Below are positions 6,957-29,942 of a stretch of 38,069 bases of DNA, in pieces; within the stretch, counting starts at the first letter, position 1, and the number at the start of each line of letters is the position of its first letter. The notes below the pieces were generated by a model. That model was not told the DNA's origin, searched no databases, and saw only the letters and a list, made by a program, of their open reading frames with translations. The position numbers and the translations under genes were made by a program. The DNA comes from Rubrivivax sp. (GTDB taxonomy: Bacteria > Pseudomonadota > Gammaproteobacteria > Burkholderiales > Burkholderiaceae_C): NCBI GenBank assembly GCA_027483705.1, contig JAIXTY010000193.1:1-38069 (forward strand), given 5' to 3'.

Positions 6957-6957
6957 G

Positions 6958-9138: not shown

Positions 9139-9139
9139 G

Positions 9140-9153
9140 GCCCCTGCAGGGGC
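9140..9153. repeat. 14-bp perfect palindrome after the GH92 gene
   Basis: GCCCCTGCAGGGGC is a perfect inverted repeat with no loop, one base after the GH92 stop and 20 nt before the next ATG. It could be a protein-binding site or a chance result of GC-rich sequence. There is no T-tract, so it is not an intrinsic terminator. Confidence 0.3.
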
Positions 9154-9172
9154 GCACACGGCCGCCCGGAAC

Positions 9173-9856
9173 ATGACCCTGACACCGCCCCCCGAGATGC
9201 AGCCCCTGGCGGGCTGGCTCGAGCGCCCCGACGCCGAGTTGCTGGCGCGCGCCCAGGCCTTCCGCGCCCAGATGGCGCTGCGCCGCACGGTGCGCGAGTT
9301 CTCCCCACGCCCGGTGTCGCGCGAGCTGATCGAGCAGTGCCTGCTCGCCGCCGGCAGCGCGCCTTCGGGCGCCAACCAGCAGCCCTGGTTCTTTGCCGTG
9401 ATCACGCAGCCCGAGCACAAGCGCCGCGTGCGCGAGGCCGCCGAGGCCGAGGAACGCGCCTTCTACGCCGGCCGCGCGCCGGGCGAATGGCTCGAGGCGC
9501 TGGCGCCGCTGGGCACCGACGCCAGCAAGCCCTTCCTCGAGACGGCGCCGGTGCTCATCGCCGTGTTCGCGCAGAAGTACGGCCTGCGCGCCGACGGCAC
9601 GCGCTTCAGCCACTACTACGTGCCCGAGAGCGTGGGCATCGCCATCGGCTTTCTCGTGGCGGCGCTGCACCAGGCCGGGCTCGCGACGCTCACGCACACG
9701 CCCAGCCCGATGGGCTTTCTCACCACGCTGTGCGGCCGGCCCGACAACGAGCGGCCCGTGGTGCTGCTGGTGGCCGGGCACCCGGCACCGGGCTGCCAGG
9801 TGCCGGTGGCCGGCGGCATCAAGAAGCCGCTGGAGGCGATCGCGCAGTGGCTCTAG
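9173..9856 (+). CDS. Nitroreductase-fold flavoprotein, similar in layout to iodotyrosine dehalogenases
   Basis: A 227-residue FMN-dependent oxidoreductase of the nitroreductase fold. The N-terminal block [13 protein letters not shown] holds the Arg residues that bind the FMN phosphate, and [13 protein letters not shown] is the second FMN-contact motif. The central segment ([23 protein letters not shown]) and the end block [19 protein letters not shown] resemble the iodotyrosine-deiodinase/BluB-like branch more than NfsA/NfsB. The substrate cannot be assigned. ATG 9173 is the only start that keeps the whole domain. No signal peptide is seen, so it acts in the cytoplasm. It may be read through from the GH92 gene, 34 nt upstream. 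Its stop overlaps a short hairpin shared with the convergent caspase-like gene. Confidence 0.88.
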
Positions 9857-9869
9857 CCGGGGCCCGGCT
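9855..9869. terminator. Short hairpin between convergent genes
   Basis: AGCCGG and CCGGCT flank a 3-nt loop and overlap the last bases of both the nitroreductase-fold gene and the caspase-like gene. There is no T-tract on either side, so intrinsic termination is doubtful. Confidence 0.3.
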
Positions 9870-10792
9870 CAGGGCCGGAAGGCCGGCGCCGCCGCCAGCG
9901 CCGCGGCCTCGGCCGGCGGGCCCAGCACGAAGAGGTTGGGGCTCTGGCTGGCCGGCATCGCGGCGCGCACCTGCGCGTGCAGCTGCGCCCAGCTGCCGGC
10001 AAAGCGGCCGTGGTTCCAGGTGCGCAGCACCTGCTCGGTGAAGGCGCCGTTGTGCTCGCCGTCCATCGAGAACTGGTTGTCCTGGCAGCCCGAGATCAGC
10101 AGCACCGCCGGCTTGAAGGGCCCGGTGAGCGTGAGCGCCTGTGCCGCCGGGCCGCTGACGGCCACCTGCGCCAGCGCGGCGTCGGGGTCGTCGGTGCGCG
10201 CGGCCGCGGCGGCCTTGAACACGGCCGACTGCAGCGCGTCGTACTGCGCCTGGTGGGCGCCGTAGACGCGCATCGCCACGGCGTCGGGCATCAGGCGCAC
10301 GCGCTGGCCCGGCGGCGGGGGCGGCGGCAGGCGGGCGCGCGTGACGCTGCCGCTGTGGCAGCTGTCGGACAGCACCACCACGCGCACACCGCGCGCGAAG
10401 CGGCTGAGCTCGAGGTAGAGCTCGTCGTCGATGAGCTGCCCGTCCCACAGGCACCAGGTCTCGTCCTTGCGGTCGGGTTCGTCGCGGTTGGTGTCGGGCA
10501 CCTGGCCGCCGTGGCCCGAGAAGGTGAGCAGGAAACGGTCGCCGGCCTTCAGCGCCTTGGCGGCGGCCCGCATCGCCTTGAGCAAGGCCGCCCGCGTGCC
10601 CTTCTTGGTGAGCAGCACGGTGGGCGCGAAGCCCTGCTTCTTCGCCAGCGCGGCGAGGTCGCGCGCGTCGTTCTCGCAGGCGGCCAGCGGGCCGTCCCAG
10701 CCCTCGTAGTGCGCCGCGCTGACGCTGTTCAGGCCCACGTGCATCGACAGCGCGCGGGGCTTCGGGGCGGAGGTCTTCTTCGCGGTGGCCAT
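9869..10792 (-). CDS. Caspase-like (C14, metacaspase-type) cysteine peptidase
   Basis: A 307-residue protein of the caspase/metacaspase superfamily. The catalytic dyad is intact: His94 in LTFSGHGGQ and Cys145 in LSDSCHSGS. The N-terminal block ([12 protein letters not shown], then [20 protein letters not shown]) is the usual start of a bacterial p20 domain. The acidic stretch [14 protein letters not shown] after the His would lie in the substrate pocket, as expected for peptidases that cut after Arg or Lys; this specificity is inference. A proline run (six residues) follows the Cys region and separates a less conserved C-terminal part. I chose ATG 10792 because AAGGA lies 8 nt upstream; the longer frame has no better site. 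No signal peptide, membrane segment or fused sensor domain is seen. It is divergent from the MATE gene (116 nt) and has no defence-type neighbours. Confidence 0.92.
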
Positions 10793-10908
10793 CGGGTGGT
10801 CCTTCGGGGTGTCGTCGGGGGCTGCGATCATGCGCCTCGGGCCCCGTGGTGCGCATCCCTAGCGGCCGGCTCCGTCTCGATCCGATCTGCCGCCCGTTCC
10901 ACCGCCCG

Positions 10909-12282
10909 ATGACCCGCCCGCCACCGCCGCCCTCGCCGCGCCTGGTCTCGCTGGCCGCGCCGCTGCTGCTGGAGCTGCTGCTGGCCATGCTCGTGGGCAT
11001 CGCCGGCACGGCAATGGCGGCACGGCTGTCCGACGCCGCGGGCGCCGGCTTCGCGCTGGCGCACCATGTGTTCGGCGCGCTGTTCCTGCTGTTCCGCATC
11101 GTCGGCGCCGGCGCCGGCGTGGTGCTGACGCAGGCCCTCGGCGCCGGCCGCCGCGAGGAGGCCGACCGCGTGGCCCGCGCGCTGCTGGGCGCGAGCACCT
11201 GGATCGGCCTGGCCGTGGCCGTGCCCGCGGCGCTGGCCGCCACGCCGCTGCTGCGGCTGATGAACGCGCCGCCCGAGGTGCTGCCGCTGGCCGCGCCGCT
11301 GCTGGTGGCCCTGGCACCGGTGCTGGTGCTCGACGCCTGGACGAGCAGCCTCACCAGCGTGCTGCGCAGCCACCTGCGCGCGCGCGACACGCTGGCCGTG
11401 ATGGCCGCGATGCAGACGCTGCAGCTGCTGCTGATGGGGCCGCTGATGCTGGGCTGGGGGCCGATGCCGGACGGCTGGGCTTTGGGCCTGCCGGGCTTTG
11501 CGCTGGCGGCGTTACTGTCGCGCGTGCTGGCCATCGCGCTGATGCTGGCGCTCTGGCGGGCGCGGCTCGGGCTGGTGCCGGGCGCCGGGGACTGGTGGCG
11601 CTGGCGCGGGCGCGAGCTGGCCGCGGTGGTGCGCATCGGGCTGCCGGGTGCGGCCGAGAACCTGACCTACCGGCTGTCGTTCATGGTCAGCGTGGCCGTG
11701 GTGGGCCAGTTCGGCGCCGCGTCGCTGGCCACGCACGCCTACGCCCAGCAGGTGATCATGGTCGTGCTGCTGTTCGGGCTGGCCACGGGTCTGTCGGTGG
11801 AGGTGGTGGTGGGCCACCAGGTGGGCGCGGGGCGGCTGCACGAGGCGCATGCGCTGGTCAAGCGCGCCCTGGCGCGAGGCCTCGCGGTGAGCGTGGCGGT
11901 GGCCACCGTGGCGGCACTGGCCGGGCCCTGGCTGATGCGCCTCTTCACGAAGGACGCCGCCATCGCCGCGGCGGCCGTGACGCTGCTGTGGTGGACCGTG
12001 CTGCTGGAGCCGGGCCGCACCTTCAACCTCGTCGTCATCAACGCGCTGCGCGCTGCGGGTGACGCGCGCTACCCGGTGCAGGTGGGCGCGCTGAGCATGG
12101 TCGTGGTGCTGGCCGGCGGCAGCTGGCTGCTGGGCAGTGTGCTGGGCCTGGGCCTCGTGGGCGTGTGGATCGCGTATGCGGCCGACGAGTGGCTGCGCGG
12201 CCTGCTCATGTGGCGGCGCTGGGTGCGGCTGCAGTGGGTGCCGATGGCCCGCGCCAGCCGAAGGCGGCTGGCGCATCGGTAG
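10909..12282 (+). CDS. MATE family efflux transporter
   Basis: A 457-residue inner-membrane protein of the MATE (multidrug and toxic compound extrusion) family, which exports organic cations or other small molecules using a Na+ or H+ gradient. Twelve hydrophobic segments can be traced from residue 14 to about 445. The two halves repeat: GAGAGVVLTQALGAGRREEA in the first half mirrors LATGLSVEVVVGHQVGAGRL in the second, the usual internal pseudo-symmetry. ATG 10909 is chosen since it starts just before the first membrane segment. The last ten codons lie within a 34-bp tandem repeat (described separately), so the very C-terminus (ASRRRLAHR) may be a recent addition. Substrate unknown. It shares a 116-nt divergent region with the caspase-like gene, but no functional link is evident. 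Confidence 0.93.
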   Translation: MTRPPPPPSPRLVSLAAPLLLELLLAMLVGIAGTAMAARLSDAAGAGFALAHHVFGALFLLFRIVGAGAGVVLTQALGAGRREEADRVARALLGASTWIGLAVAVPAALAATPLLRLMNAPPEVLPLAAPLLVALAPVLVLDAWTSSLTSVLRSHLRARDTLAVMAAMQTLQLLLMGPLMLGWGPMPDGWALGLPGFALAALLSRVLAIALMLALWRARLGLVPGAGDWWRWRGRELAAVVRIGLPGAAENLTYRLSFMVSVAVVGQFGAASLATHAYAQQVIMVVLLFGLATGLSVEVVVGHQVGAGRLHEAHALVKRALARGLAVSVAVATVAALAGPWLMRLFTKDAAIAAAAVTLLWWTVLLEPGRTFNLVVINALRAAGDARYPVQVGALSMVVVLAGGSWLLGSVLGLGLVGVWIAYAADEWLRGLLMWRRWVRLQWVPMARASRRRLAHR

Positions 12283-12331: not shown

Positions 12332-14326
12332 CTAGGCCGCTGGCATGTGCCGCGCCAGGAACTTCTCGACGCGCGTCCAGAACTCGACGCGGTTCTCGGG
12401 CTTGCGCAGGCCGTGGCCCTCCTCGGGGAAGCGCAGCACCTCGACCTGCTTGTTGTGCCCGCGCAGCGCGCGCTCCATGCGCTCGGCATGCACGCGCGAG
12501 ACACGCCGGTCGCGCTCGCCCCAGGCCAGCAGCACCGGCGCGGTGATGCGCTCGGCCTGGTGCAGCGGCGAGGCCGCGCGCAGCTTGTCGCGGTCTTTCT
12601 CCGGATCGCCGATCAGGCGCTTCAGGCCCAGCTCGGCTGTCTCGCGGGAGATGTCCGTCCACGCCTCGTCAAACAGCAGCAGCGGGTCGGTCACGCCCAC
12701 CAGGCTGACGGCACAGCGGAACTGCTCGGGGTGGCGCACCAGCGCCATCAGCGCCGCGTAACCGCCGTAGGACGCGCCGATGGCGGCCACTCGCCGGCCG
12801 TCACCACCGCCCTGCGCCACGGCCCAGGCCGCGGCATCGGCGATGTCGTCCTGCATCGCCAGGCCCCACTGGCCGAAGCCGGCCTCCTCGTGCTGCTGGC
12901 CGAAGCCGGTGGAGCCCCGGAACTCCGGCGCCACGACGAGATAGCCCCGCGAGGCGAGGAACTGCCACTCCGGGTTCCAGCGCCAGTGCCCACCGCGCAC
13001 CCAGGGGCCGCCGTGGATGTCGATCACCACCGGCAGCTTCGCGTTGCCGCCGGCGCCGGGCGGGCGCGTCACGTAGGCCGGGATCTCCAGGCCGTCGCGC
13101 GCCTTGAAGCGCACGAAGTCGGTCTGCGCCATGCGCGCCGGCGGCACCTGCGGGCGCTCGGCACCCACGAGCACGAGCTTGCGTTCGACGCGGTTCCACA
13201 CGAGCCAGCGCGAAGGCTGCTGGTCTGCATAACTCTCGACCAGCACGAACGGGCTGTTGCCCCGGCGCGGCGGCACAAGGCGGTTGATGCCCGTGCTCAG
13301 GCGGGCGTCCACGTCGGCCTGCACGGCCTTCATGCCCTCGTCCCACCACTGCGTGACCTCCGCGTCGGCCTGCACCCGGACGCCGAGCGCGCGGTCGTCG
13401 CGCGCCACGATCTCGGGGCTGGCATCGAAGCCGGCGAGGGCCAGCAGCGGCTTGGCCGACAGCTCGCCGGAGTCGCGGTCGAGCGTGTACAGCGACTGCA
13501 GGCCGCGGCTGTCGGGTGCCGCGACGTACAGCGTGCCGTCGCGGGCGGCGTGCAGCGGCCGGACGCCGGTGCTGCTGCGGAAGCGGTCGAAGCGGACGCT
13601 GTCGCGCCAGGCGCCGTTGCGCTGGCGCACGCGCAGCACGGCCTGCGCGCCGTCGGTCCTCACCACCACGGCCGGCTCGCCGTCGGCGCCGATGAGGAAC
13701 CCCGCGGCGCGGCGCGGCAGGTCGGGATGGCTCACCTCGAGCGTGGCCGTGTCGATGACCGACAGCCGCCAGCTCGTCACCGGGTCGCCGCGCGGCGGCA
13801 CCGGGTCGGGCTCGACCATGTACAGCTTCGAGTCGCGCTGCGCGCCCTCGGTCAGCGGCCAGGCCCACGGGTGCACGTTCAGGCTGTCGACGCTCATGCT
13901 CGAGCCCTGTTCGCGCCAGAACGGCCGCAGGACCTTGTAGCGGCTGCCGTCGCGGTCGACGGCGAACAGGCCGCCGGTGTAGCGGTTGTTGTAGCCGTCG
14001 AGCTCCAGGCGCGCCCCGAAGAGCAGGCGCTGGTCGCTGAGCCAGTGCATCCAGGCGACGTCGCCGTCGGGGAAGCTGGCCACCGTCCTGGCGGCCATGG
14101 TCGCCAGCTCGACCACCACCAGCTGCTGCCGCCCGCTCGCGCCGATGGCGAGCAGGGCCAGGGCCTCGCCCGAGGGCGCGAGGACCACGTCGTCGACCTT
14201 CGGGTCGCCGAAGAACAGCTCGGGGGCCAGCGGGCCGGGCCGGTCGGCCTGCGCCAGGGCCAGCGGGGTGGCCAGCATGGCCAGGCCAGAGGCCAGCGCC
14301 TGCCGGCGATCGGGCGTCCAGGTCAT
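12332..14326 (-). CDS. S9 family prolyl-oligopeptidase-type serine peptidase, exported
   Basis: A 664-residue alpha/beta-hydrolase of peptidase family S9. The N-terminal signal (DRRQALASGLAMLATPLALAQA) suggests export, possibly by Tat. Residues 35-400 form a beta-propeller-like region; residues 400-664 are the catalytic domain with Ser519 in GASYGGY, Asp606 in WGERDRRV and His638 in EEGHGL. The HGGPW block at 438-442 is the usual oxyanion-side motif. These enzymes typically remove short peptides or dipeptides, sometimes acylaminoacyl groups; the specificity here is unknown. The start is supported by GGGAGA 6 nt upstream of ATG 14326. It follows the halogenase-family gene by 28 nt on the same strand, so the two are likely co-transcribed and linked to the TonB receptor further upstream. 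Confidence 0.93.
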   Translation of the reverse strand: MTWTPDRRQALASGLAMLATPLALAQADRPGPLAPELFFGDPKVDDVVLAPSGEALALLAIGASGRQQLVVVELATMAARTVASFPDGDVAWMHWLSDQRLLFGARLELDGYNNRYTGGLFAVDRDGSRYKVLRPFWREQGSSMSVDSLNVHPWAWPLTEGAQRDSKLYMVEPDPVPPRGDPVTSWRLSVIDTATLEVSHPDLPRRAAGFLIGADGEPAVVVRTDGAQAVLRVRQRNGAWRDSVRFDRFRSSTGVRPLHAARDGTLYVAAPDSRGLQSLYTLDRDSGELSAKPLLALAGFDASPEIVARDDRALGVRVQADAEVTQWWDEGMKAVQADVDARLSTGINRLVPPRRGNSPFVLVESYADQQPSRWLVWNRVERKLVLVGAERPQVPPARMAQTDFVRFKARDGLEIPAYVTRPPGAGGNAKLPVVIDIHGGPWVRGGHWRWNPEWQFLASRGYLVVAPEFRGSTGFGQQHEEAGFGQWGLAMQDDIADAAAWAVAQGGGDGRRVAAIGASYGGYAALMALVRHPEQFRCAVSLVGVTDPLLLFDEAWTDISRETAELGLKRLIGDPEKDRDKLRAASPLHQAERITAPVLLAWGERDRRVSRVHAERMERALRGHNKQVEVLRFPEEGHGLRKPENRVEFWTRVEKFLARHMPAA

Positions 14327-14354
14327 CGTCTTTCTCTCCCTTGGCGCGCCGCCC

Positions 14355-15893
14355 TCAGCGGGGCGGCGTCGGTGCCTTGCAGTGTTGCGCGATGTAGGCC
14401 TCGTGCGTGGGCATCACGTCCACGCACTTGGCGATGACGCCCTCGATGCTGCGCAGGTAGGCCGCGGTCTCGTCGTCGTCGATCAGGTCGGCCAGCGGGT
14501 GGTGGCGCTCGGGCTTCAGGCCCTGGCCCTCGAAGACCTGCAGCCACGCCACCTCGGCAAACAGCTCGCCGGCCTCGCGGAACACGCGGCCGCGGCTGCG
14601 GTAGAGGTTCATGCGCCGCGTCAGCGAGGCCGGCACCTCCATCGTGCGCACGTGGTTCCAGAACGGCGTGTCGCTGCGCTCGGTGAGGTGGTAGTGCAGG
14701 ATCAGGAAGTCGCGGATGGTCTCGAACTCCATCCGGTTCTGGCGGTTGAACTCGTCGATGTCGGCCTGCGCGAAGGCGCGGTCGGGCCAGAAGCTGATGA
14801 GCCGAGCGATGCTGGCCTGGATGAGGTGGATGCTGGTGCTTTCCAGCGGCTCCATGAAGCCCGAGCTCAGGCCCACGGCCACGACGTTGCGGTTCCAGCC
14901 GAGCCGGCGCATGCCGGTGGTGAAGCGCAGCGGCCGCGGCCCGGCCAGCGCCTCGCCGGGCAGGTTGGCCATCAGCATCGCGGTGGCCTCGTCGTCGCTG
15001 ATGAAGCGGCTGCAGTAGACGTGGCCGTTGCCGATGCGGTGCTGCAGCGGGATGCGCCACTGCCAGCCCGCGGTGCGCGCGGTGGCGCGCGTGTACGGCG
15101 TGATCGGCTGCACCGAGGCGCAGGGCACGGCGACGGCGCGGTCGCAGGGCAGCCAGTGCGTCCAGTCCTCGTAGCCGGTCTTCAGCGTCTGCTCGATCAG
15201 CAGGCCGCGGAAGCCCGAGCAGTCGATGAACAGCTCGCCCTGCACGCGCTGGCCGTTGTCCAGTTGCACGGCGTCGACGTGGCCGTTGCTGCCGCGCAGC
15301 AGCACGTCGACGATCCTGCCCTCGATGCGCTCGACGCCGGCGCGCTCGGCCAGCTTGCGCAGGTACTTCGCGTACAGGCTGGCATCGAAGTGGAAGGCGT
15401 GCGCGATCTCCGCCAGCGGCGAGTGGCCCACCGACGGATCGGCGCGCATGAACTTGCCGGCCTTGGCCGCGGCTCGCGTGATCGAGTAGCGCTCCAGCGC
15501 GCTGGCGCGGCCGGCGGCGCGCATCTTGTTCCAGTACTGGTCGAAGCCGACGGTCCAGAGGTCCTGGCCGAAGCGGCCGAAGCCGTGCATGTAGGTGTCG
15601 CCCAGGCGGCCCCAGTCGACGAACTCGATGCCGAGCTTGAAGGTGCCCTGCGTCTCGCGCAGGAACTCGTCCTCGTCGATGCCCAGCACGGCGTTGAAGC
15701 GCTGGATCATCGGGATCGTGGCCTCGCCGACGCCGACGATGCCGATCTCGTCGCTCTCGACGAGGCGGATGCGCACCGGGTTGGCGGCCTCGCCCAGGCG
15801 CAGCACCTTGGCCAGCGCGGCCGCGGTCATCCAGCCGGCGGTGCCGCCGCCGACGATGACGACGTCTCGGATCAGGGAATCGGTTCGGTCCAT
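14355..15893 (-). CDS. Flavin-dependent tryptophan-halogenase family protein
   Basis: A 512-residue FAD protein of the tryptophan halogenase family. The signatures are all present: the FAD-binding GGGTAGWM (15-22), the candidate catalytic Lys86 in TFKLGIEF, the WxWxIP motif as GWQWRIP (276-282), and Glu348 in GFMEPLEST. This argues for a working halogenase chemistry rather than a monooxygenase, since WxWxIP is thought to block the monooxygenase reaction. ATG 15893 is preferred; a GTG at 15917 would begin against the upstream terminator. No signal peptide is present, so it acts in the cytoplasm, unlike its exported neighbours. Members of this family often sit beside TonB-dependent receptors in carbohydrate loci of Xanthomonas and Caulobacter relatives, where their substrate is not established. 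A flavin reductase partner is not seen nearby. Confidence 0.93.
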
Positions 15894-15921
15894 GGCTCGG
15901 GATCGTAGAGCGGTCACCTCG

Positions 15922-15958
15922 AAAAAAGGCCCCGACCGCTCGAGCGGCCGGGGCCTTT
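15922..15958 (-). terminator. Intrinsic terminator after the TonB receptor gene
   Basis: AAAGGCCCCG and CGGGGCCTTT form a 10-bp stem; the enclosed part contains the self-complementary CCGCTCGAGCGG, extending the hairpin. Read on the minus strand it ends in six T residues, so it terminates transcription coming from the receptor. It lies between the receptor stop and the halogenase start, so the halogenase depends on read-through or a promoter within this short gap. Confidence 0.88.
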
Positions 15959-15975
15959 CGGCGTCAGCGCCGCGG

Positions 15976-18765
15976 TCAGAACTTGTAGTTCAGACCGATC
16001 TGGTAGAACTTGCCGTCCTTCTTGTTCTCGACCTCGTTGTCCGGCGTGGTGCGGTAGCGGATGTACGGCTCGTTGCCGGAGTTGCTGACCTCGCCGCGGA
16101 TGGCCAGGCCCTTCAGGAAGCCGCTCTGGAACTCGTAGCCGATCTGCGCGTCCATGATCGACTCGCCCTTGATGTAGGTGAGGCGGCGGTCGCCGGCGAA
16201 GTCGGCCACCTCGCCGACGAAGTCGGAGCGGTCACGCACCGCCACGCGCGCCGAGAAGCCGAAGCGCTCGTAGTACACGGCGTAGTTCGTCACCTTCTTC
16301 GACAGGCCCGGCAACGGGATCGAGGCCGTCGACACCGAGTCCGTCCGCACGCCCGAGGTCGGCAGCGTCAGGCTGCTGCTGGTGTCGGAGTAGCTGGCGA
16401 AGACGCCGAAGCCGTTCAGCCACGAGCTCACCATCTCGAGCGGGAAGTTCACCGCCAGCTCCACACCCGACACGCGGCCGCCGTTGCCGTTCACGGGCTG
16501 CGTGAACTTGCCGATCTGCGGGCTCGGGCGCACCGGCAGCACCGTCGACGGCGTGAGGTACGGCGTGAAGTCGAAGGCCGGGTTCGTGACGTTGACGATG
16601 TAGCTCGACAGGTCCTTGTAGAAGCCCGCCACCGAGACATAGGCCTTGGTGCCGAAGTACTTCTCGTAGGCCAGGTCGATGGCGTTGCCGCGGAAGGGCT
16701 TGAGCTTGGGGTTGCCGCCGCTGCCGTCGAGGATGTTGTCGGTCGTGTTCAGGCTGAAGCCGAAGCTGGCGCGCATGTCGTCGACCTTGGGGCGCGCCAT
16801 CACGCGCGACAGGCCCATGCGCAGGATGCCGGCGTTGCCGAAGTCCCAGTTCAGGTTCAGGCTGGGCAGCACGTCGGTGTACTTGTCGCCGGCCGTGTTG
16901 GTGCGGGCCGGGCAGACGGTGTCGCTCGTGCACAGGCCGCGGTCCACGTTGTAGGCCGTGGAGCTCTGGTCGGTGGCCACCAGCTGCAGACCGACGTTGC
17001 CGCGCACCGGCACGCCGAACCACTCGGTGTCGAGATCGGACTTCGCGTAGAAGGTGTTGACCTTCTCCTCGACACGCCAGTCCTTGTTGAAGATGTCCGG
17101 GTTCAGCTTGCTGGCGACGCGGTAGATCGAGCCCACCGAGTCGGACGAGTCGAACGAGGGCACGCTGATCGTGCCGCCGCCGGGCATCGAGATGGCCGTG
17201 ACGCCGCTGCCGGGCACCGGGGCCGAGCCCAGGCCGGTGGTGTCGCCCAGCAGCACCAGGCGGCCTTCGACGAACTCGCGACGCTTCTCGCGCGACGAGG
17301 CATGCACGCCGCCCTCGACGCTGACCAGCGGGCCCCAGGACACGTCGGACTTCAGCGACAGGCGCACCGCGGTGATCTCGTCCTCGACCGTCGGCAGCTT
17401 GCTGTAGCCGGCCTGCGGCTGCGAGGTGCCGCCGCCCCAGCCCTGCACGTCGGTCAGACGGATGATGCTGCGGTCGGTGTAGTTGATGCCCGGCGTGAAG
17501 CGGCCGTTGTTGACGAAGCGGATGGTGTCCAGCTGCGCCGTGCCGAGCGTGCTCTGCGCGGTGCCGGCGGTCGTCTCGACGATGCCGCCGCGGCGCTCGG
17601 CCTTGCTGTTGCTCAGGTCGGCCGTGGCGGTGAGGCCGCCGATCTTGAACTGCGTGTTCCAGCCGATCGAGGTGTTCTCGTCCTTCGTGCTCTCGCTGTC
17701 GTTGCGGACGACGGCGCGCACGTTGTTGAAGGCACCCGCGGTGACGTTGGAGCCGCTGGTGGTGGCCTCGGTCAGCACGCCGGCGAGGTCGTAGTTGAAG
17801 GTGCCGTTCCAGCTGTCGTTCAGCGGCGCCTGGAAGCCGGTGGTCGTCTTGACCTTGTCGAAGGTGCTGTGGAAAACGTCCAGCGTGGTGCTGAAGTCCT
17901 TGCTCGGCTTGTACTGGATCGTCGCGGCGACGCCGTCGCGCTTGCGCTTTTCCTGGTCGGCGAAGAGACCGAAGCCGTTGTACGGCACGCTCAGGTCGGG
18001 GCCGGTGCCGTTGAGCTTGGCCGTGCCGCCGCCCCAGTTGTCGAAGCGCGTCGTCACGCCGCCGGTCTCATCCAGCCGCGCAAAGCCGACCGCGATGCCG
18101 AGCTTGCGATCGAGGAACTGGTCGACGTAGAGCACGCTGTAGCGGTCGCCGTCGCCTTCCTGGCCGCCGCCGCCCACGTTGAGCTTGTTCTTGCGGTACG
18201 ACAGCGCCACGGTGCGCGCCGGGAAGTCCAGCGGGCGGGCCGTCGAGAGGTCGATGGTGGCCGACAGGCCCTGGCCCACCAGCGCGCCGTCGGGCGACTT
18301 GATCACCTTGACGCCGGCCACGAGCTCCGACGGGTACTGGTCGAACTCGACGCTGCGGCTGTCGCCGGTGCTGGCCTGTTCGCGGCCGTTGAGCAGGTTG
18401 GTCGAGAAGTCCGGCGCGAAGCCCCGCACCGCGATCTGGCTGGCCCGGCCGGCCGTGCGCTGCGCCGCAACGCCCGGCAGCCGCGCGATGCTCTCGGCGA
18501 TGGAGGTGTCGGGCAGCTTGCCCAGGTCTTCGGCGGAGATCGCCTCGACGATCTGGTCGGCGTTCTTCTTGACGCTGATCGCGCTCTCGATGCCGCGGCG
18601 GATGCCGGTGATGGTGACCACCGAGCCGCCGGCAGAGGCCGCCGGAGCGGCGGCCTGCTGGGCGTAGGCGAGGCCACTGCTGGCGAGCACGGCGGCGACG
18701 GCGGCCGCCACCGGGGTGGCGCGCATCAGCACGGTGTGTGCGCGCACGGGCTGGTACTTCTTCAT
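15976..18765 (-). CDS. TonB-dependent outer-membrane receptor (Xanthomonas/Caulobacter type)
   Basis: A 929-residue outer-membrane receptor that imports a ligand with energy from TonB. The Sec signal runs to about residue 35 (GLAYAQ). The plug domain starts with [19 protein letters not shown] and [20 protein letters not shown], characteristic of the large Xanthomonas/Caulobacter-type subfamily often tied to carbohydrate uptake. [17 protein letters not shown] and [19 protein letters not shown] follow. The rest is beta-barrel, ending in GLNYKF with the terminal aromatic residue required for membrane insertion. ATG 18765 has AGGAGA 6 nt upstream. It is divergent from a secreted GH13 amylase and followed by the halogenase and S9 peptidase genes, suggesting a maltodextrin or other glycan ligand; the ligand assignment is inference from neighbours. 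Confidence 0.94.
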
Positions 18766-18870
18766 GGTGTCTCCTGAGACTCTGGAGGGGGTCTGTGGGG
18801 GCTGCCGATCCAACCTGCCCCACAGGCGCGGATCGGTGCCGAAAGAATCGAAACAAGGACCGGGGACCCG

Positions 18871-18887
18871 AACTTTGTATCAAAACT
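18871..18887. promoter_or_regulatory. Operator-like palindrome 1
   Basis: The core TTTG-TAT-CAAA (18874-18884) is an inverted repeat with a 3-nt centre, located 106 nt upstream of the receptor start. It shares TTTGTA...CAAA with the second palindrome, as expected for two sites of one dimeric repressor. No regulator gene of LacI type is in the window. Confidence 0.45.
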
Positions 18888-19034
18888 AGATCATCCGTAC
18901 CCCTGCGGAAACCCTAGATCGGTGCGCCCGCAGGGCCGCTACGGTGCGATCCTGCGCCGTTCGACCCCGTGAGTCGGGGCTGATGGCCGCCAAACGGCGC
19001 ACCGAGATGGGGAATGTCCAAGCCATGACCAGCC

Positions 19035-19050
19035 AGTTTGTAGCCAAACT
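19035..19050. promoter_or_regulatory. Operator-like palindrome 2
   Basis: AGTTTG-TAGC-CAAACT is a 6-bp perfect inverted repeat with a 4-nt centre, about 85 nt upstream of the preferred amylase start at 19136. It resembles palindrome 1. If the amylase began at ATG 19025 instead, this site would fall inside the coding region. Confidence 0.45.
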
Positions 19051-19135
19051 ACAGCACCACGCCACAACGCCGGCCAACGGCCAGGGTGCCCGCGAGAGCG
19101 CCCGGCCAGCCCGGACTGTTGCGTTTTGGCGTCAA

Positions 19136-21754
19136 ATGGCCGGCGCGATGGCGCTGCTGGGCGCCGCCGCGCCGGCCCTGGCGCAGCCGAAGCTGCACGT
19201 GCCCTCGCCCGACTGGCGCGACCAGGTCATCTACTTCGTGATGACCGACCGCTTCGCCAACGGCAACCCCGCCAACGACGACCAGGGTGCCGGCGAGTTC
19301 AAGCCCGGTGATCGCAGCCGCTACCAGGGCGGCGACTTCCAGGGCCTGATCGACCGGCTGGACTACATCCGCGGCCTGGGTGCCACGGCGCTGTGGATCA
19401 CGCCGCCGGTGGCCAACCAGTGGCTCGGCCCCGATGGCGCGTACAGCAGCTACCACGGCTACTGGGCGCAGCACTTCAGGCAGGTCGACCCGCACCTGGG
19501 CACGCTGGCCGACTACCAGCGCCTGAGCGACGCGCTGCACCGCCAGGGTCTGTACCTGGTGCAGGACATCGTGGTCAACCACACCGGCAACTACTTCGGC
19601 TACGGCGCGTGGCGCGCCGACGACCCCGAGCGCGCCTGGCGCGGCTTCGAGGCCTACACGCGCACGCCGCCGGTGGCGCGGCCCACGCAGCCGCCCTTCG
19701 ACCAGAACGACCCGCGCGACCCCGCGCAGCGCGCCGCCGGCATCTACCACTGGACGCCGATGGTCGCCGACTACAAGGACCCGGTGCAGGAGGCCACCTT
19801 CCAGATGGGCGGCCTCGACGACCTGGCCACCGGCAACCCCGTGGTGCGCCGCGCGCTGCGCGACAGCTACGGCTTCTGGGTGCGCGAGGTCGGCGTGGAC
19901 GCGTTCCGCGTCGACACCGCGTTCTACGTGCCGCCCGAGTTCTTCCGCGATTTCCTGCGCTCGCAAGACCTCGCCGCACCGGGCATCGAACGCGTGGCCA
20001 GGGCCACCGGCCGCGACGGCTTCTTCACCTTCGGCGAGGGCTTCGGCATCGACAGGCCCTACCGCGACGAGATGGCGCGCAAGGTCGAGCGCTGGGCCAC
20101 CGACGCCCAGGGCCCGCTGATGCCGGGCATGCTGAACTTCCCGCTGTACGGCGCGCTGAACGACGCCTTCGCGCGCGGCCGGCCGCCGGCGGAGCTGGCC
20201 CACCGCATCCGCCAGACGATGGCGCTGCATGCGCGCCCGCACCTGATGCCCACCTTCGTGGACAACCACGACGTCGACCGCTTCCTGCAGGGCGGCAGCG
20301 TGCCGGGGCTGCGGCAGGCGCTGCTGGCGATGTTCACGCTGCCCGGCATCCCCGTCGTCTACTACGGCACCGAGCAGGGCTTCAACGAGCCGCGCGCCAG
20401 CATGTTCGCGGCCGGCTGGGGCTCGGGCGGGCGCGACCGCTACGACACCACGGCCCCGCTGTACCGCGACATCGCGGCGATGGCCGCGTTGCGCCGCGGC
20501 GACCGCGTCTTCACGCGCGGCACGCCGCGTGTGCTGCACGCGGCCGGCGCCACGCCGGGCGCCATCGCCTGGGCCATGGAGTACCGGGCCACGCCGCAGG
20601 CGCCGAGGCAGCGCGCGCTGGTGGTGATGAACACCGCCGAGCAACCGGCACTGCTGCCGGCCGTGGCCACCGGCTGGCCCGCGGGCACGGTGCTGGAGGG
20701 CGTGTACGGGCTCGACGGCACGCCGGGCCGCGTGGTGGTGGGCGCGGGCGGGCGGCTGACGCTCGCGCTGGCGCCGCGCAGCGGGCAGGTGTGGCGCGTC
20801 GCGGCGGTGGGCCAGGTTGCCGGCCAGGCCACCGCCGCAGCGCCGGCACCCACGATCGAGGCCCTGCCGTCGGCGCGCGTGCGCGGCGACTTCGAGGTCC
20901 GCGGCCGCGTGCCGCCGCGGCCCGGCGCGGCGTGGCGGCTGGTGGTCGACGGCCAGCTGGCGCAGGCCCAGCCGGTCGTGCCCGACGCGCAGGGCCGCTT
21001 CAGCGCCCGCGTCGACACCTCGACGATGGTCGACCCCGGCGTCGAGCACGAGCTCAGCGTGTGGGCCGACGGCGAGGCCGCGGCGCCGGTGCGCCGCTTC
21101 CGCGTCGACCGCGCCTGGGCACTGGCAGCACGCGCCGACGACCCCGCCGGCGATGACACCGGCGCACTCGGCCCGCAGGCCGGCCGCTACGCCTACCCCA
21201 CCGACAGCAGCTGGGGCGCCAACCGCCAGATGGACCTGCGCCACGTCGCCGCCTTCACCGCCGGCGGCGCGCTGCGCCTGGAGCTGGGCCTGCACCGCCT
21301 GACGACCTACTGGAGCCCGCCCAACGGCTTCGACCATGTGCACCTGACGGTGTTCATCGAGCTGCCCGGCGAAGGCCCCGGCGCCACGGCGATGCCGATG
21401 CAGGACGGCACGCTGCCCGCGGGCATGACCTGGCACCGCCGGCTGCGCGTGGGCGGCTGGAGCAACGCCCTGTTCTCGCACGAGGGCGCCAGCGCCAGCG
21501 GCGAGGGCACGCCGGTGGCGCCCGGCGCTTCGCTGCAGGTCGACGCCGCGCGCCACACCATCACGCTCACGCTGCCGGCGGCCGCGCTCGGCCGCAGGGC
21601 CACGCTGGCCGGGGTGCGCGTCTGGGTCACGACCTGGGACTACGACGCCGGCTACCGCGCGCTGGGCCTCGAGCCCGCGGCCTACGCGATGAGCGGCGCA
21701 CCGCCGGGCTCGCCCAAGGTGATGGACGCCTCGGCGGTGCTGGTTTTGCCGTAG
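19136..21754 (+). CDS. GH13 alpha-amylase family enzyme with C-terminal accessory domain, exported
   Basis: An 872-residue alpha-glucan hydrolase or transglycosylase of family GH13. The catalytic triad is visible: nucleophile Asp260 in VDAFRVDTAF, acid/base Glu301 in FTFGEGFG, and Asp379 in FVDNHDVDRF. DIVVNHTG is the first conserved region. The barrel starts at DWRDQVIYFVMTDRF. After a short beta domain (to about residue 555) and a linker, the last 220 residues resemble the glucodextranase-type C-terminal domain (DDPAGDDTG, then RYAYPTDSSWG), probably a carbohydrate-binding or surface module. Start choice is uncertain: 19136 fits codon use and opens into a hydrophobic leader ending ALAQP, but its n-region has no positive charge; ATGs at 18983, 19007 and 19025 are alternatives. 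Divergent from the TonB receptor. Confidence 0.93.
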   Translation: MAGAMALLGAAAPALAQPKLHVPSPDWRDQVIYFVMTDRFANGNPANDDQGAGEFKPGDRSRYQGGDFQGLIDRLDYIRGLGATALWITPPVANQWLGPDGAYSSYHGYWAQHFRQVDPHLGTLADYQRLSDALHRQGLYLVQDIVVNHTGNYFGYGAWRADDPERAWRGFEAYTRTPPVARPTQPPFDQNDPRDPAQRAAGIYHWTPMVADYKDPVQEATFQMGGLDDLATGNPVVRRALRDSYGFWVREVGVDAFRVDTAFYVPPEFFRDFLRSQDLAAPGIERVARATGRDGFFTFGEGFGIDRPYRDEMARKVERWATDAQGPLMPGMLNFPLYGALNDAFARGRPPAELAHRIRQTMALHARPHLMPTFVDNHDVDRFLQGGSVPGLRQALLAMFTLPGIPVVYYGTEQGFNEPRASMFAAGWGSGGRDRYDTTAPLYRDIAAMAALRRGDRVFTRGTPRVLHAAGATPGAIAWAMEYRATPQAPRQRALVVMNTAEQPALLPAVATGWPAGTVLEGVYGLDGTPGRVVVGAGGRLTLALAPRSGQVWRVAAVGQVAGQATAAAPAPTIEALPSARVRGDFEVRGRVPPRPGAAWRLVVDGQLAQAQPVVPDAQGRFSARVDTSTMVDPGVEHELSVWADGEAAAPVRRFRVDRAWALAARADDPAGDDTGALGPQAGRYAYPTDSSWGANRQMDLRHVAAFTAGGALRLELGLHRLTTYWSPPNGFDHVHLTVFIELPGEGPGATAMPMQDGTLPAGMTWHRRLRVGGWSNALFSHEGASASGEGTPVAPGASLQVDAARHTITLTLPAAALGRRATLAGVRVWVTTWDYDAGYRALGLEPAAYAMSGAPPGSPKVMDASAVLVLP

Positions 21755-21827: not shown

Positions 21828-24800
21828 ATGACCGAGCCCGCCGTCACGCTGTCGCTGCAGGGCGCCGCCACCGCGCAGCAGGCCGGGCGCACGCTGCCGC
21901 TGGCCGCGCCCGACGCGCTGCTGCTGGCCTGGCTGGCGCTGCAGGGCCCGACGCCGCGCGAACGCCTGGCCGCGCTGCTGTGGCCCGGCAGCGATGCCGA
22001 CGCCTCGCGCAACGCGCTGCGCCAGCGGCTCTTCAGGCTGCGCCGGCAAGTCGGCGCCGAGCTCGTCGAGGGCAGCACGGTGCTGGCGCTGGCCGCGGGC
22101 GTCGCGCACGACCTCTCGCCGGCGGCGCCGCTGCTGGGCCAGCTGGGCGCGCCCGAGCAGCCCGAGCTCGACGCCTGGCTGGCGCGCCACCGCGCCGGCC
22201 GCGCCGCCGCCGAGCGCCAGGCGCTGGCCGCGCGCATCCAGGCGCTGGAGGACGCCGGCGATGCCGGCGCGGCGCTGCCGCTGGCACTGGAGCTGCTGGC
22301 TGCCGACCCGCTGTCGGAAGACGCGCACCGCCGCGTGATGCGGCTGCACTACCTGCGCGGCGACCGCGCCGCGGCCATGCTGGCCTTCGACCGCTGCGAG
22401 CACACGCTCAAGCACGAGGTCGGCGCGGCACCCTCGGCCGAGACGCTGGCGCTGCTGGCCACCATCGAGCGCGCGGCGCCGCTGTCGGGCGCGGCGGCGC
22501 AGCGCCAGCCGGTGCCGGCGGCGCTGCTGCGGCCGCCCCGCCTGGTGGGCCGCGACACCGAGCGCACGCAGCTGCTGCAGGGCCTGGCGGCCGGGCCGGT
22601 GGCGGTGCTGGTGGGCGAGGCCGGCATGGGCAAGTCGCGGCTGTTGCAATCACTGGCGGCCGACGACCCGCGGCGCCTGCACGTCAGCGGCCGCCCCGGC
22701 GATGCGCTCGTGCCCTACGCGACGCTGGCCCGCGTGCTGCGCGCCGTGATCGAGCGCGACCCGGGCGCCGTCGCCGAGCCCGCCGTCGCCGCGCTGGCCC
22801 CGCTGCTGCCCGAGCTGGCCACCCGTGCGCCGGCGCTCGCCCCGGGCCGCGCGGGGCCGTCGCAGACACCGCTGCTGCGCCCGGTGCAGGCGTTGCTGCA
22901 GCACGCCGCGGCGGCGCTGGACGCGCTGCTGCTCGACGATCTGCACTTCGCCGACACCGCCACGCTGGAGCTGCTGCAGGCGCTGCTGGCCGCGCCGCGC
23001 ACTGACGACCCCGGCGCCGCCGGCCCGGCGACGCGCTGTGTGCTCGGCCTGCGCCCGCCGGCCGCGGGCACGCCGCCGGCGCTGCTGCTCGACGCACTGG
23101 CCGCCGCCGGGCCGCTGGTGCGCGTGGTGCTGCAGCCGCTGTCGCCGGCGGCCCTGGCCGAGCTGGTCGACGCGCTGGCCCTGCCCGGCGTGGCCGGCGC
23201 CGACATCGCCGGCCGGCTGCACGCGCGCACCGGTGGCAACCCGCTGTTCGCGCTGGAGACGCTGAAGCTGCTGTGGGCCGAGGGCGGCGCCTCACCCGAG
23301 GCCCTGGCCGCCGGCGACGCGCTGCCGCGGCCGCAGACGCTGGCGCAGCTGATCGGCCAGCAGCTGGCGCGGCTGTCGCCACCGGCGCTGCAGCTGGCGC
23401 GCGTGGCCGCGGTGGCCGGCGTCGACTTCTCGCTCGAGCTCGCCGAGGTGCTGCTCGGCCGCCCTGCGCTCGACCTGGCCGACCCCTGGGCCGAGCTCGA
23501 GGCGCAGCAGGTCATGCGTGGCACCGCGTTTTCGCACGACCTCGTGCACGACGCGGTGCTGCAGGGCCTGCCGGAGGTCATCGCACGGCACCTGCACGGC
23601 CGCGCGGCCGCGTGGCTCGAGTCGCAAGGCGCCGCCGACCCCGCCCCCGACCCCGCGCGCATCGCCGCCCACTGGGAGGCCGCCGGCCAGCACGCGCGGG
23701 CGCTGCCGGCGCTGCGCGCCGCGGCCGAACGCGCGCGGCGGGCGCTGCGCGAGGGCGAGCGCATCGAGCTGCTGCTGCACGCCGCCGACATCGCCGAGGC
23801 CGACGGCCGCACGGCCGAGGCCTTCGACCTCGTGCACGCCGCGCTCGACGGCCACATGAACACGCTGCGCCAGCACCACGGCCTGCCGCTGCTGGAGCGC
23901 CACGCGCGGCTGGCGCGAACGCCGTGGCAGCACGCGCGCGTGGCCGCCAACCGCGCCTGGTACGCCGCGGTGCTGGGCGACTGGGCGCAGGCACTGGCCG
24001 CCGGGCGCGAGGCGCTGGCGCTGGCGCTGCCGGTGGGCGACGCCGAACTCACGGCTTCGGTGCAGCAGCGCCTAGGCGCGGCCATGGGCATGGCCGGTCA
24101 CTTCGACGAGGCGCTGCGGCACCTGCAGGCGGCCGCGCCCTGGATGCGCGAGCACGCCGCGCCGCCCGACGCGGTGGAGTTCGAGGGCAACCTCGCCGCC
24201 GTGCTCGACAACCTCGGCCGCCACGCCGAGGCGCGCGAGCACCACGCGCGCGCCATCGCCGCATCGGCACTGCACTCCGAGCCGCCCAACCGCGCCACGC
24301 TGCTGGCCAACGACGCGCTCAGCCGCCTCGACGCCGGCGACGCCGCCGGCGCGCTGGAGCAGGCGCAGCTGGCACAGCGCATCGTGCAGAACTTCGAGTC
24401 GACGGCCGGCAGCGACGGCTTCATCGCCGTGCTGCTGGCCCAGGCCGAACGCGCGCTGGGCCGCCCGGCGGCCGCGCTGGCCTGGTGCGACCGTGCCGAG
24501 GCCATCCTGGCCGACACCCTGCCTTCGCGGGTGCCGGTGGCGCGCATGCACCGCGCCCATGTCTGGCTCGACCTGGCCCAGCACGCGCGCGCGCAGCAGG
24601 TGCTGGCCGGCGACGGCCTGGCCCTGGCGCGCCGCATGCCGCCGCGTTACGGCGTGCGCTGGCGCGTGCTGCTGGCGCGGCTGGCGCGCCGGCTGGGGCA
24701 GCACGCCGAGGCCGACGAGATGCTGGCCGAGGCCGCGGCGGCGGTGCCGGCCCAGGGCTGGCCCGAGCTGGGGCTGCTGGTGCGCACCGAACAGGCGCTG

Positions 24801-25193
24801 GGTCGCCCAGCCGACGAAGCCGCCGCCACGCTGGCCGGCATCGCCCAGGACGCCGCCGCCGGCGGCCTGGGCGGTGCCGAGCTGGGCGCCCTGCTGCACC
24901 GGGCCTGGCTGGCGCCCGACGCTGACCAGGCTGTCCTGGCCGCGGAGCGTGCGCTCACCTTGATGGCGCGGGCCGAGGCCCTGCACACCGACCGCGCCTG
25001 GCGCTGGCTGGCCCCGGCCCGGGCACTGGCGCGGGCCGGCCGCGCCGCCGAGGCCGAGGTGCTGGCGGAGACCGGCCGCGAGTGGCTGCGCCGCACCGTG
25101 GCCACGCAGGTGCCGCCGGCCTTTGCCGACAGCTTCCTGCACCAGCACCCGGTGCACCGCTGGCTGCAGGCCGAACGCCCCGGCCGCGCGTGA
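21828..25193 (+). CDS. SARP/BTAD-type regulator with AAA ATPase and TPR-like repeats
   Basis: An 1121-residue cytoplasmic regulator. Residues 1-95 look like the winged-helix DNA-binding unit of SARP proteins (RERLAALLWPGSDADASRNALRQ is cut here to its key part: LWPGSDADASRNALRQ). Residues 105-225 form the bacterial transcriptional activation domain, with ELLAADPLSEDAHRRVM. The ATPase domain follows, with Walker A GEAGMGKS at about 263-270 and Walker B LLLDDLHFAD at about 365-375. From about residue 560 to the end there are alanine-rich helical pairs of TPR type. The layout resembles LuxR/MalT-type STAND regulators but with the DNA-binding part at the front. It lies 73 nt downstream of the amylase on the same strand, so it may regulate the amylase/receptor locus; this is inference. 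The inducer is unknown. Confidence 0.88.
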   Translation: MTEPAVTLSLQGAATAQQAGRTLPLAAPDALLLAWLALQGPTPRERLAALLWPGSDADASRNALRQRLFRLRRQVGAELVEGSTVLALAAGVAHDLSPAAPLLGQLGAPEQPELDAWLARHRAGRAAAERQALAARIQALEDAGDAGAALPLALELLAADPLSEDAHRRVMRLHYLRGDRAAAMLAFDRCEHTLKHEVGAAPSAETLALLATIERAAPLSGAAAQRQPVPAALLRPPRLVGRDTERTQLLQGLAAGPVAVLVGEAGMGKSRLLQSLAADDPRRLHVSGRPGDALVPYATLARVLRAVIERDPGAVAEPAVAALAPLLPELATRAPALAPGRAGPSQTPLLRPVQALLQHAAAALDALLLDDLHFADTATLELLQALLAAPRTDDPGAAGPATRCVLGLRPPAAGTPPALLLDALAAAGPLVRVVLQPLSPAALAELVDALALPGVAGADIAGRLHARTGGNPLFALETLKLLWAEGGASPEALAAGDALPRPQTLAQLIGQQLARLSPPALQLARVAAVAGVDFSLELAEVLLGRPALDLADPWAELEAQQVMRGTAFSHDLVHDAVLQGLPEVIARHLHGRAAAWLESQGAADPAPDPARIAAHWEAAGQHARALPALRAAAERARRALREGERIELLLHAADIAEADGRTAEAFDLVHAALDGHMNTLRQHHGLPLLERHARLARTPWQHARVAANRAWYAAVLGDWAQALAAGREALALALPVGDAELTASVQQRLGAAMGMAGHFDEALRHLQAAAPWMREHAAPPDAVEFEGNLAAVLDNLGRHAEAREHHARAIAASALHSEPPNRATLLANDALSRLDAGDAAGALEQAQLAQRIVQNFESTAGSDGFIAVLLAQAERALGRPAAALAWCDRAEAILADTLPSRVPVARMHRAHVWLDLAQHARAQQVLAGDGLALARRMPPRYGVRWRVLLARLARRLGQHAEADEMLAEAAAAVPAQGWPELGLLVRTEQALGRPADEAAATLAGIAQDAAAGGLGGAELGALLHRAWLAPDADQAVLAAERALTLMARAEALHTDRAWRWLAPARALARAGRAAEAEVLAETGREWLRRTVATQVPPAFADSFLHQHPVHRWLQAERPGRA

Positions 25194-26370: not shown

Positions 26371-26389
26371 CCCGATGCCGGAGGACCCC

Positions 26390-26983
26390 ATGCACGCCAC
26401 CGCGACCGCCATCACCACCGAAGCCGCGCTCCGGCCCCCGAGGCCGTGCACCCGGGCCCCGGTGGAGCAGGTGTTCCGCGACCTCGTGGCCCAGCACCGC
26501 GAGCGCCTGTACCGCTTCGTGCTGCGCCACATCGGGCACGCCAGCGACGCCGAAGACCTGGCGCAGCAGGCCTTCGTCGAGGCCGCGCGCACCTACGCGG
26601 CGTTCCGCGGCGAGTCGCAGCTGTCGACCTGGCTGTACGGCATCGCGATGAACCTGGTGCGCCACCACCTGACGCGCTCGCCGGCCTCGCGCCAGCGCCA
26701 CCTGGACGGCGACGAGGCGCTGGCCGATCTGGTGGCCGAGGACGCAGCGCCCGAGGTGCGCTGCGACCACGCCGAGCTGGTGCGCCACCTCGAGGCCGAC
26801 CTGCAGGAGCTGATGCCCGAGATGCGCGAGGTGCTGCTGCTGGTGGCGCTGGACGACCTGAGCTACGAGGAAGCGGCGGCGATGCTGTCGGTGCCGGTGG
26901 GCACGGTGCGCAGCCGCGTCTCGCGCGCCCGCACGCAGCTGCGCCGGCGCATGCAGGCGCGGGGCGCCGTGCTGCCGTTCTGA
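26390..26983 (+). CDS. ECF (group 4) sigma-70 factor
   Basis: A 197-residue RNA polymerase sigma factor with only regions 2 and 4. Region 2 spans about residues 30-95: RLYRFVLRHIGHASDAEDLAQQAF contains the acidic, canonical region 2.2 (shown here by HASDAEDLAQQAF), followed by RGESQLSTWLYGIAMN. Region 4 covers about 135-190, with LSYEEAAAMLSVPVGTVRSR as the helix-turn-helix. ATG 26390 has GGAGGA 5 nt upstream; an in-frame ATG at 26375 has no such site. The last codons run to within 30 nt of the convergent kinase gene. No anti-sigma gene with a zinc or membrane domain is adjacent, so control may come from the two unknown genes just upstream. The acidic region 2.2 sets it apart from the second sigma factor at 29943-30566. 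Confidence 0.93.
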   Translation: MHATATAITTEAALRPPRPCTRAPVEQVFRDLVAQHRERLYRFVLRHIGHASDAEDLAQQAFVEAARTYAAFRGESQLSTWLYGIAMNLVRHHLTRSPASRQRHLDGDEALADLVAEDAAPEVRCDHAELVRHLEADLQELMPEMREVLLLVALDDLSYEEAAAMLSVPVGTVRSRVSRARTQLRRRMQARGAVLPF

Positions 26984-27013
26984 TGCTCTGACGTTGCGAA
27001 GCCGCGCAGACGC

Positions 27014-29926: not shown

Positions 29927-29942
29927 GCGGCGACCGGCGCGA

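Follow-up and report, generated by a model that had tools for sequence, protein, structure and literature searches.

A TonB-dependent receptor, a flavin halogenase and an S9 hydrolase at a probable starch utilization locus of a Burkholderiales bacterium

Genes of the locus and their conservation

The window, i.e. the whole 38,069-nucleotide stretch of DNA analysed here, is one complete contig (C338) of a 4.8 Mb draft genome and has a G+C content of 74%. Its minus strand encodes, in the order of transcription, a TonB-dependent receptor, a flavin-dependent halogenase and an S9 hydrolase, and a GH13 amylase gene is divergent from the receptor gene. The receptor (15976..18765, minus strand) is a TonB-Xanth-Caul family member of a distant MalA type, which matches TIGR01782 with 559.8 bits over residues 66-945 of the longest frame, above the curated cut-off of 310 bits. 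The halogenase (14355..15893, minus strand; PF04820, 647.8 bits) is of the BrvH/Xcc4156 type, and the S9 hydrolase (12332..14326, minus strand) matches PF00326 with 151.9 bits. The amylase (19136..21754, plus strand; PF00128, 158.3 bits) carries a Glucodextran_C module (PF09985, 71.4 bits), and its nearest solved chain is the 43wj alpha-amylase (E 1.4e-138). These coordinates and family scores bear out the four genes, and their orientations, as given in a preliminary description of this DNA.

Our comparison set comprises 80 named halogenase loci with up to 10 kb on each side, the best 80 of 500 confirmed halogenase relatives and mostly from Burkholderiales, which together with the window gives 81 loci. 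The nearest named relatives by halogenase are Rubrivivax-like Burkholderiales, and an even draw of 80 genomes of the order, the window genome included, contained four with a halogenase at E 1e-50. Within the set (best 80 of 500 relatives plus the window), a TonB receptor lies directly 5' of the halogenase and co-directional with it in 76 of the 81 loci. Among the exceptions, L011 and L056 have a GH13 gene in between, L027 has a fragment of the GH13 cluster at a contig end before the halogenase, L062 has a different gene order, and L063 has no sequence covered 5' of the halogenase. In the window genome itself, a halogenase gene follows immediately after each of the three full-length TIGR01782 receptor genes, and the fourth match is a fragment located at the end of a contig. 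The complete set of divergent GH13, receptor, halogenase and S9 genes is found again in L010, L150 and L232, and smaller sets are widespread. Because the receptor is directly 5' and co-directional in 76 of 81 loci, the grouping goes beyond chance, and the four genes form a conserved unit. The earlier proposal of a single uptake and processing locus, which had named conservation of the neighbourhood in relatives as its check and lack of conservation as its refutation, is supported by this recurrence. Halogenase genes in Xanthomonas CUT loci are mentioned in the literature. Within the open-licence literature searched, including sections of PMC11337851, we found no paper tying a halogenase to a TonB maltodextrin locus.

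Several further genes surround these four. A MATE-family exporter gene (10909-12282) is convergent with the S9 gene, and MATE genes with 45-75% identity lie near L010, L027, L081, L227, L228, L229, L240 and L241. A caspase-like peptidase (9869-10831; PF00656, 77.5 bits) has relatives near the receptor-halogenase loci L008, L027, L046 and L227, in the last three of which they adjoin a 231-residue ParA-like protein. An esterase, a GH92 alpha-mannosidase-family enzyme and a nitroreductase lie in a row at 6015-9856, with an AraC-type regulator divergent upstream, and at 26375-30497 a Ser/Thr kinase with TPR repeats is flanked by two ECF sigma factor genes on opposite strands.

Operator box, promoter element and terminator

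The intergenic region between receptor and amylase contains the palindrome TGTAGCCAAACTACA (19039..19053), which occurred on average 0.00 times in 100 shuffles of the window. The amylase gene probably starts at 19136; a start further 5' would place this conserved operator inside the gene. In the window genome the exact box has five sites, each between divergent glucose or alpha-glucan genes: glucokinase and a glucokinase-RpiR fusion (site 1), alpha-glucan phosphorylase (glgP) and glgC (site 2), a MalK-like ATPase and glgX (site 3), a GH13 gene and pullulanase (site 4), and the receptor and amylase (site 5). Several of the box-flanking proteins are cut by a sequence boundary and therefore score under the equivalog cut-offs. 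Genome-wide, the box is not commoner than a reversed control pattern (five sites versus seven); what counts is the placement of the sites, and all seven control sites fall inside genes. In five relatives, 17 of 18 box sites lie beside phosphorylase, amylase, pullulanase, glucokinase, glgC, MalK-like or receptor genes, the single miss being inside an unrelated gene of G640. All five box-flanking gene pairs were found again in a same-genus genome, and the receptor loci of G021 (L150) and G544 (L232) have the box with one mismatch only.

The box also recurs upstream of halogenase-linked receptors, for which we compared 71 upstream regions, skipping the receptors of L008, L009, L025, L051, L058, L062, L070 and L072 (near a contig end or not linked). 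The exact box is present in 47 of the 71 regions and in none of ten shuffles. At up to one mismatch, and with promoter-like matches dropped, it is present in 60 regions (0-3 in shuffles); the count rises to 67 of 71 if such matches are kept, some of them being the promoter element itself. This element, ATCTAGTTTTGATACAAA in the window (18874..18891, minus strand), is conserved before the receptor genes: its consensus ATCTAGTTTT[AG]nTACA, which ends 109 bp before the receptor start, is found at up to one mismatch in 65 of the 71 regions (0 or 1 in shuffles).

The box has the form of an operator of the RccR/HexR type, TGTAG-N5-CTACA, in front of target genes. RccR of Pseudomonas, an RpiR-family sensor of KDPG, binds TGTAGT-N3-ACTACA (PMC5489143, in part). 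Given this likeness, and the presence of the box at its own gene, the glucokinase-RpiR fusion would be the likeliest regulator of the box. Against a regulon for starch in particular stands the fact that RpiR-type boxes govern other sugars too. A 1121-residue SARP-like regulator with BTAD, AAA and TPR parts is encoded behind the amylase (21828-25193). As a candidate for the locus regulator it was rejected: it has no match in the 80 loci at E 1e-8 and so cannot explain the conserved elements.

Between receptor and halogenase lies an intrinsic terminator (15922..15955, minus strand), a hairpin of -27.5 kcal/mol with a 12-bp stem and six T, about 28 bases from the halogenase start. Terminators of this kind are present in 72 of 76 receptor-halogenase gaps, compared with 19-28 in ten mononucleotide shuffles. 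The simplest reading is that read-through would yield much receptor and little halogenase; alternatively, the terminator could insulate the halogenase, whose promoter would then lie inside the receptor gene.

Cargo of the receptor and its companion enzymes

Genes for alpha-glucan use accompany the receptor and halogenase in many relatives. L232, L234 and L026 share the gene order receptor, halogenase, S9, malE, malF, malG and GH13, and in the same-genus locus L227 malE, malF and malG follow directly behind the halogenase. These gene labels are BLAST clusters named by eye, with MalE, MalF, MalG and GH13 checked by family for L232, where a solute-binding protein, a MalF P2 domain, a permease and an amylase domain were matched. 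A tblastn match to the window GH13 lies in the flanks of 69 of the 80 halogenase loci (best 80 of 500). In the window itself malEFG were not found, and among the called and scanned window genes near the receptor there is neither an inner-membrane maltose transporter nor a LacI-type MalI, for which reason we do not file the locus as a Caulobacter-type mal locus. A MalK-like gene on contig C356 reaches the UgpC cut-off and not the MalK one. The divergent GH13 amylase, conserved in L010, L150, L232 and L227, gives the locus the gene content of a carbohydrate utilization (CUT) locus; that the carbohydrate would also induce the locus and be taken up through it has indirect support from the shared operator.

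There are also receptor loci without a halogenase. In the family of G150, another family of the class, a divergent amylase 55-63% identical to that of the window is present in 11 of 30 receptor loci, and a halogenase stands directly behind the receptor (within 1.5 kb) in none of the 30; L134 likewise combines a receptor with a divergent amylase and has no halogenase. In the window's own family the halogenase is adjacent in 14 of 29 receptor loci and follows an intervening GH13 gene in three more; L204, L211 and L212 have this latter arrangement. The halogenase-free loci imply that the core consists of receptor and amylase, that the halogenase was added in particular lineages, and that maltodextrin uptake in general does not depend on it. 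The operator, the malEFG, GH13 and glucokinase neighbours in relatives, and those loci of another family that have the same amylase and no halogenase together make starch or maltodextrin the most likely cargo, rather than peptide, and the receptor would import maltodextrin. The same evidence does not support the nutrient suggested in the preliminary description, a glycosylated or tryptophan-containing peptide.

The halogenase is complete, as had been claimed before: with numbering from the ATG at 15893, K86, the WxWxIP motif (W277xW279xIP) and E348 are all present. K86, W277, W279, I281 and E348 do not vary across 91 aligned homologues, and 90 of these retain P282. The protein shows the features of the BrvH group, namely the catalytic lysine and glutamate, WxWxIP and the FAD motif, together with short substrate loops and no tryptophan lid; the alignment with BrvH shows a single gap, of one residue, in loop region 1 and is gap-free in region 2 (regions defined after PMC7336383, in part). 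Median identity to the window is 66% for the halogenase versus 47% for the receptor over the 80 loci, a set chosen by halogenase similarity and hence biased towards the halogenase, and 14 loci chosen by receptor similarity follow the same trend (63-70% versus 44-55%). The halogenase is far more conserved than the receptor and is the most conserved protein of the locus; judged from these sequences, it has accompanied the outer-membrane receptor for a long time.

The natural substrate of BrvH and of the Xanthomonas halogenases is given as unknown in the consulted part of PMC7336383, these enzymes halogenate indole in vitro (PMC5945002 and PMC7336383, each in part), and indole as the substrate is doubted in the BrvH/Xcc4156 literature. 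Their activity on indole would fit a halogenase that makes a secreted halogenated small molecule, e.g. a haloindole, during growth on starch; this product could act as a weapon or signal and might leave the cell through the MATE pump, whose gene recurs near the eight loci named above. We regard this as unlikely: no protein of the locus is more conserved than the halogenase, which does not fit a changing secondary metabolite, MATE genes also occur at the halogenase-free L240 and L241, and no biosynthetic partner genes were seen beside the halogenase.

Another candidate acceptor is the receptor itself, or its precursor, for example at tryptophan 443. This residue is present in 96 of 99 halogenase-linked receptors versus 9 of 54 others, and the independent receptor pairs that differ at this position all go in the same direction. 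On the tree, however, the comparison comprises just five independent pairs (median p 0.5), and the tryptophan is kept in halogenase-free receptors such as L171 and L174 and missing in the linked receptors of L118, L119 and L210, so that we give this target little credence.

Additional halogenase genes were noted on other contigs of the window genome. L119 (3636-13566; contig C98), a second receptor locus, contains, with a GH5 gene upstream, in this order a receptor, a halogenase, SapC, a Cupin_8 protein, a halogenase-DUF6445 fusion of 740 residues and a transporter; that a halogenase and putative oxygenases occur together at a single receptor may point to modification of a protein or peptide. 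In L118 (1614-9680; contig C267), two halogenase genes lie around the gene of a 619-residue Ig-like lipoprotein, beside a receptor, and in L120 (928-3263; contig C344) a halogenase gene that has no receptor with it precedes a short-chain dehydrogenase gene.

The S9 hydrolase combines an alpha/beta-hydrolase domain, a Ser-Asp-His triad (S519, D606, H638) and an N-terminal beta-propeller, and its structural model matches the fold of the acylaminoacyl peptidase 5l8s (TM 0.72/0.78). It is probably exported, as is the amylase, on the basis of hydrophobic N-termini, which a twin arginine precedes in some S9 relatives. An S9 gene follows the halogenase in 14 of the 81 loci (best 80 of 500 relatives plus the window), directly in 13 and after a second halogenase in L010, and 67 loci have none within the sequence covered (up to 10 kb of flank). 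Conversely, L240 and L241 have a receptor and S9 without a halogenase. The two enzymes are therefore separable and need not share one substrate. S9 presence mapped on the halogenase tree requires eight changes, which indicates that the gene was gained, lost or moved repeatedly.

In a tree of 51 S9 rows, the 20 rows found behind a receptor or halogenase (18 distinct genes, as L218 and L222 repeat L240 and L241) form one clade with an SH-aLRT of 99, against 31 unlinked rows, i.e. those not behind a TIGR01782-type receptor within 900 bp, two of which are copies of one gene; none of 500 shuffles was as low as observed. Pieces below 450 residues, among them the split S9 of L027, were excluded. The placement in the tree identifies these S9 proteins as a dedicated subfamily; they are an optional companion at such loci. 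The nucleophilic serine is replaced by glycine in L017, L029 and L042 and is serine in the other 15 full columns. In the same three loci a 192-residue gene adjoins S9, with an HxE...H pattern, read by eye, that resembles a 2-oxoglutarate oxygenase.

Developed in full, the earlier reading would be a system, for nutrition or signalling, for a glycosylated or tryptophan-containing peptide that the S9 enzyme cuts and the halogenase marks. It could draw on the 14 of 81 loci in which a peptidase-family gene and a halogenase of a possibly peptide-accepting class occur together, peptide acceptance having been suggested for Xcc4156 (PMC7336383, in part). We consider it very improbable, as the operator, malEFG and GH13 neighbours indicate alpha-glucan, most halogenase loci show no S9 within the sequence covered, two S9 loci lack the halogenase, and the S9 nucleophile is lost in three loci. 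A lasso-peptide locus was also considered and rejected: the S9 protein scores 63.7 bits with NF033523 versus a curated cut-off of 400, and the receptor-halogenase gap of 82 bp, which holds the terminator, and the halogenase-S9 gap of 28 bp are too short to hold a precursor gene of the usual size.

Proposed mechanism and relation to known systems

The best overall explanation, which we hold with good confidence, is a starch/maltodextrin utilization locus of a Burkholderiales bacterium; its gene set, conservation, operator, terminator and catalytic residues can be read from the DNA itself, and from these we infer the sugar, the regulator and the read-through. The exported GH13 amylase would cut starch, and the TonB-powered receptor would move maltodextrins across the outer membrane. 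A MalK-like/MalE-like ABC importer (contig C356) would then bring them into the cell for use by GlgP, GlgX and glucokinase. Control would lie with an RpiR-type regulator, most likely the glucokinase-RpiR fusion with the same box at its own gene: bound to TGTAG-N5-CTACA, it would let go of the regulon once a sugar-phosphate effector, for example KDPG, accumulates. Transcripts reading through the terminator that follows the receptor gene would supply the halogenase in smaller amounts, and the enzyme would use FADH2, oxygen and halide to form hypohalous acid, passed over K86 to an acceptor. For the acceptors of both companion enzymes we can offer guesses: that of the halogenase is probably not free tryptophan but may be a peptide, a protein or a compound resembling indole that is connected with the function of the receptor, and the S9 protein, an exported hydrolase that is dedicated yet optional, might act by trimming peptides or acyl groups that arrive with the glucan.

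A further-reaching and more tentative idea, which we put forward as possible but doubtful, is that in Burkholderiales the flavin halogenase has a function within TonB-dependent maltodextrin uptake itself: it would be regulated together with starch metabolism and kept at a lower dose than the receptor by the conserved terminator, and its acceptor would be a conserved one within the uptake system, with receptor tryptophan 443 as one candidate. If true, a chemistry based on halogenation or hypohalous acid would be put to use in primary nutrition, and a physiological role could be assigned to the orphan BrvH/Xcc4156 class. The ties of the halogenase to a sugar regulon, to one receptor and to a dosage-setting terminator suggest a growth condition to use, a partner expressed along with it and candidates for the acceptor, which makes its role testable. 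Our analysis also points out a likely RpiR-type alpha-glucan regulon and an S9 group dedicated to these receptors. The preliminary description had spoken of an undescribed nutrient or signal system. This is too strong for the locus, which is of a carbohydrate-uptake kind already known, with the conserved halogenase and the optional dedicated S9 hydrolase as its variant part; it does hold for the role of these two enzymes.

The closest published counterparts of the locus are the CUT loci of Xanthomonas XCC2469, a MalA orthologue, and Caulobacter malA, both of which are maltose-induced and likewise place a TonB receptor of the same broad family beside alpha-glucan enzymes (PMC1790865 for XCC2469 and PMC3917699, each in part). 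The window differs in having no neighbouring transporter or LacI-type regulator and in carrying an RpiR-type box, and the portions consulted of these published gene lists name no halogenase or S9 (PMC1790865, PMC3917699). With the RccR/HexR regulons of Pseudomonas (PMC5489143, in part) it shares the 15-bp palindrome of the RccR site and an RpiR domain encoded beside one box. In the window genome, however, the box marks genes of starch, glycogen and glucose metabolism, the RpiR domain forms a fusion with glucokinase, and binding is predicted. The S9 hydrolase is similar in fold and catalytic triad to acylaminoacyl peptidases and Atxe2-type lasso isopeptidases, but is far under the cut-off of the latter and belongs to a separate, receptor-linked clade. 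Finally, the halogenase is like BrvH (PDB 6frl) and Xcc4156 (6y1w) in fold, in the catalytic lysine and glutamate and in its short substrate loops, with 46-48% identity, and differs from them in being known here from its sequence and in being tied to an apparent alpha-glucan regulon.
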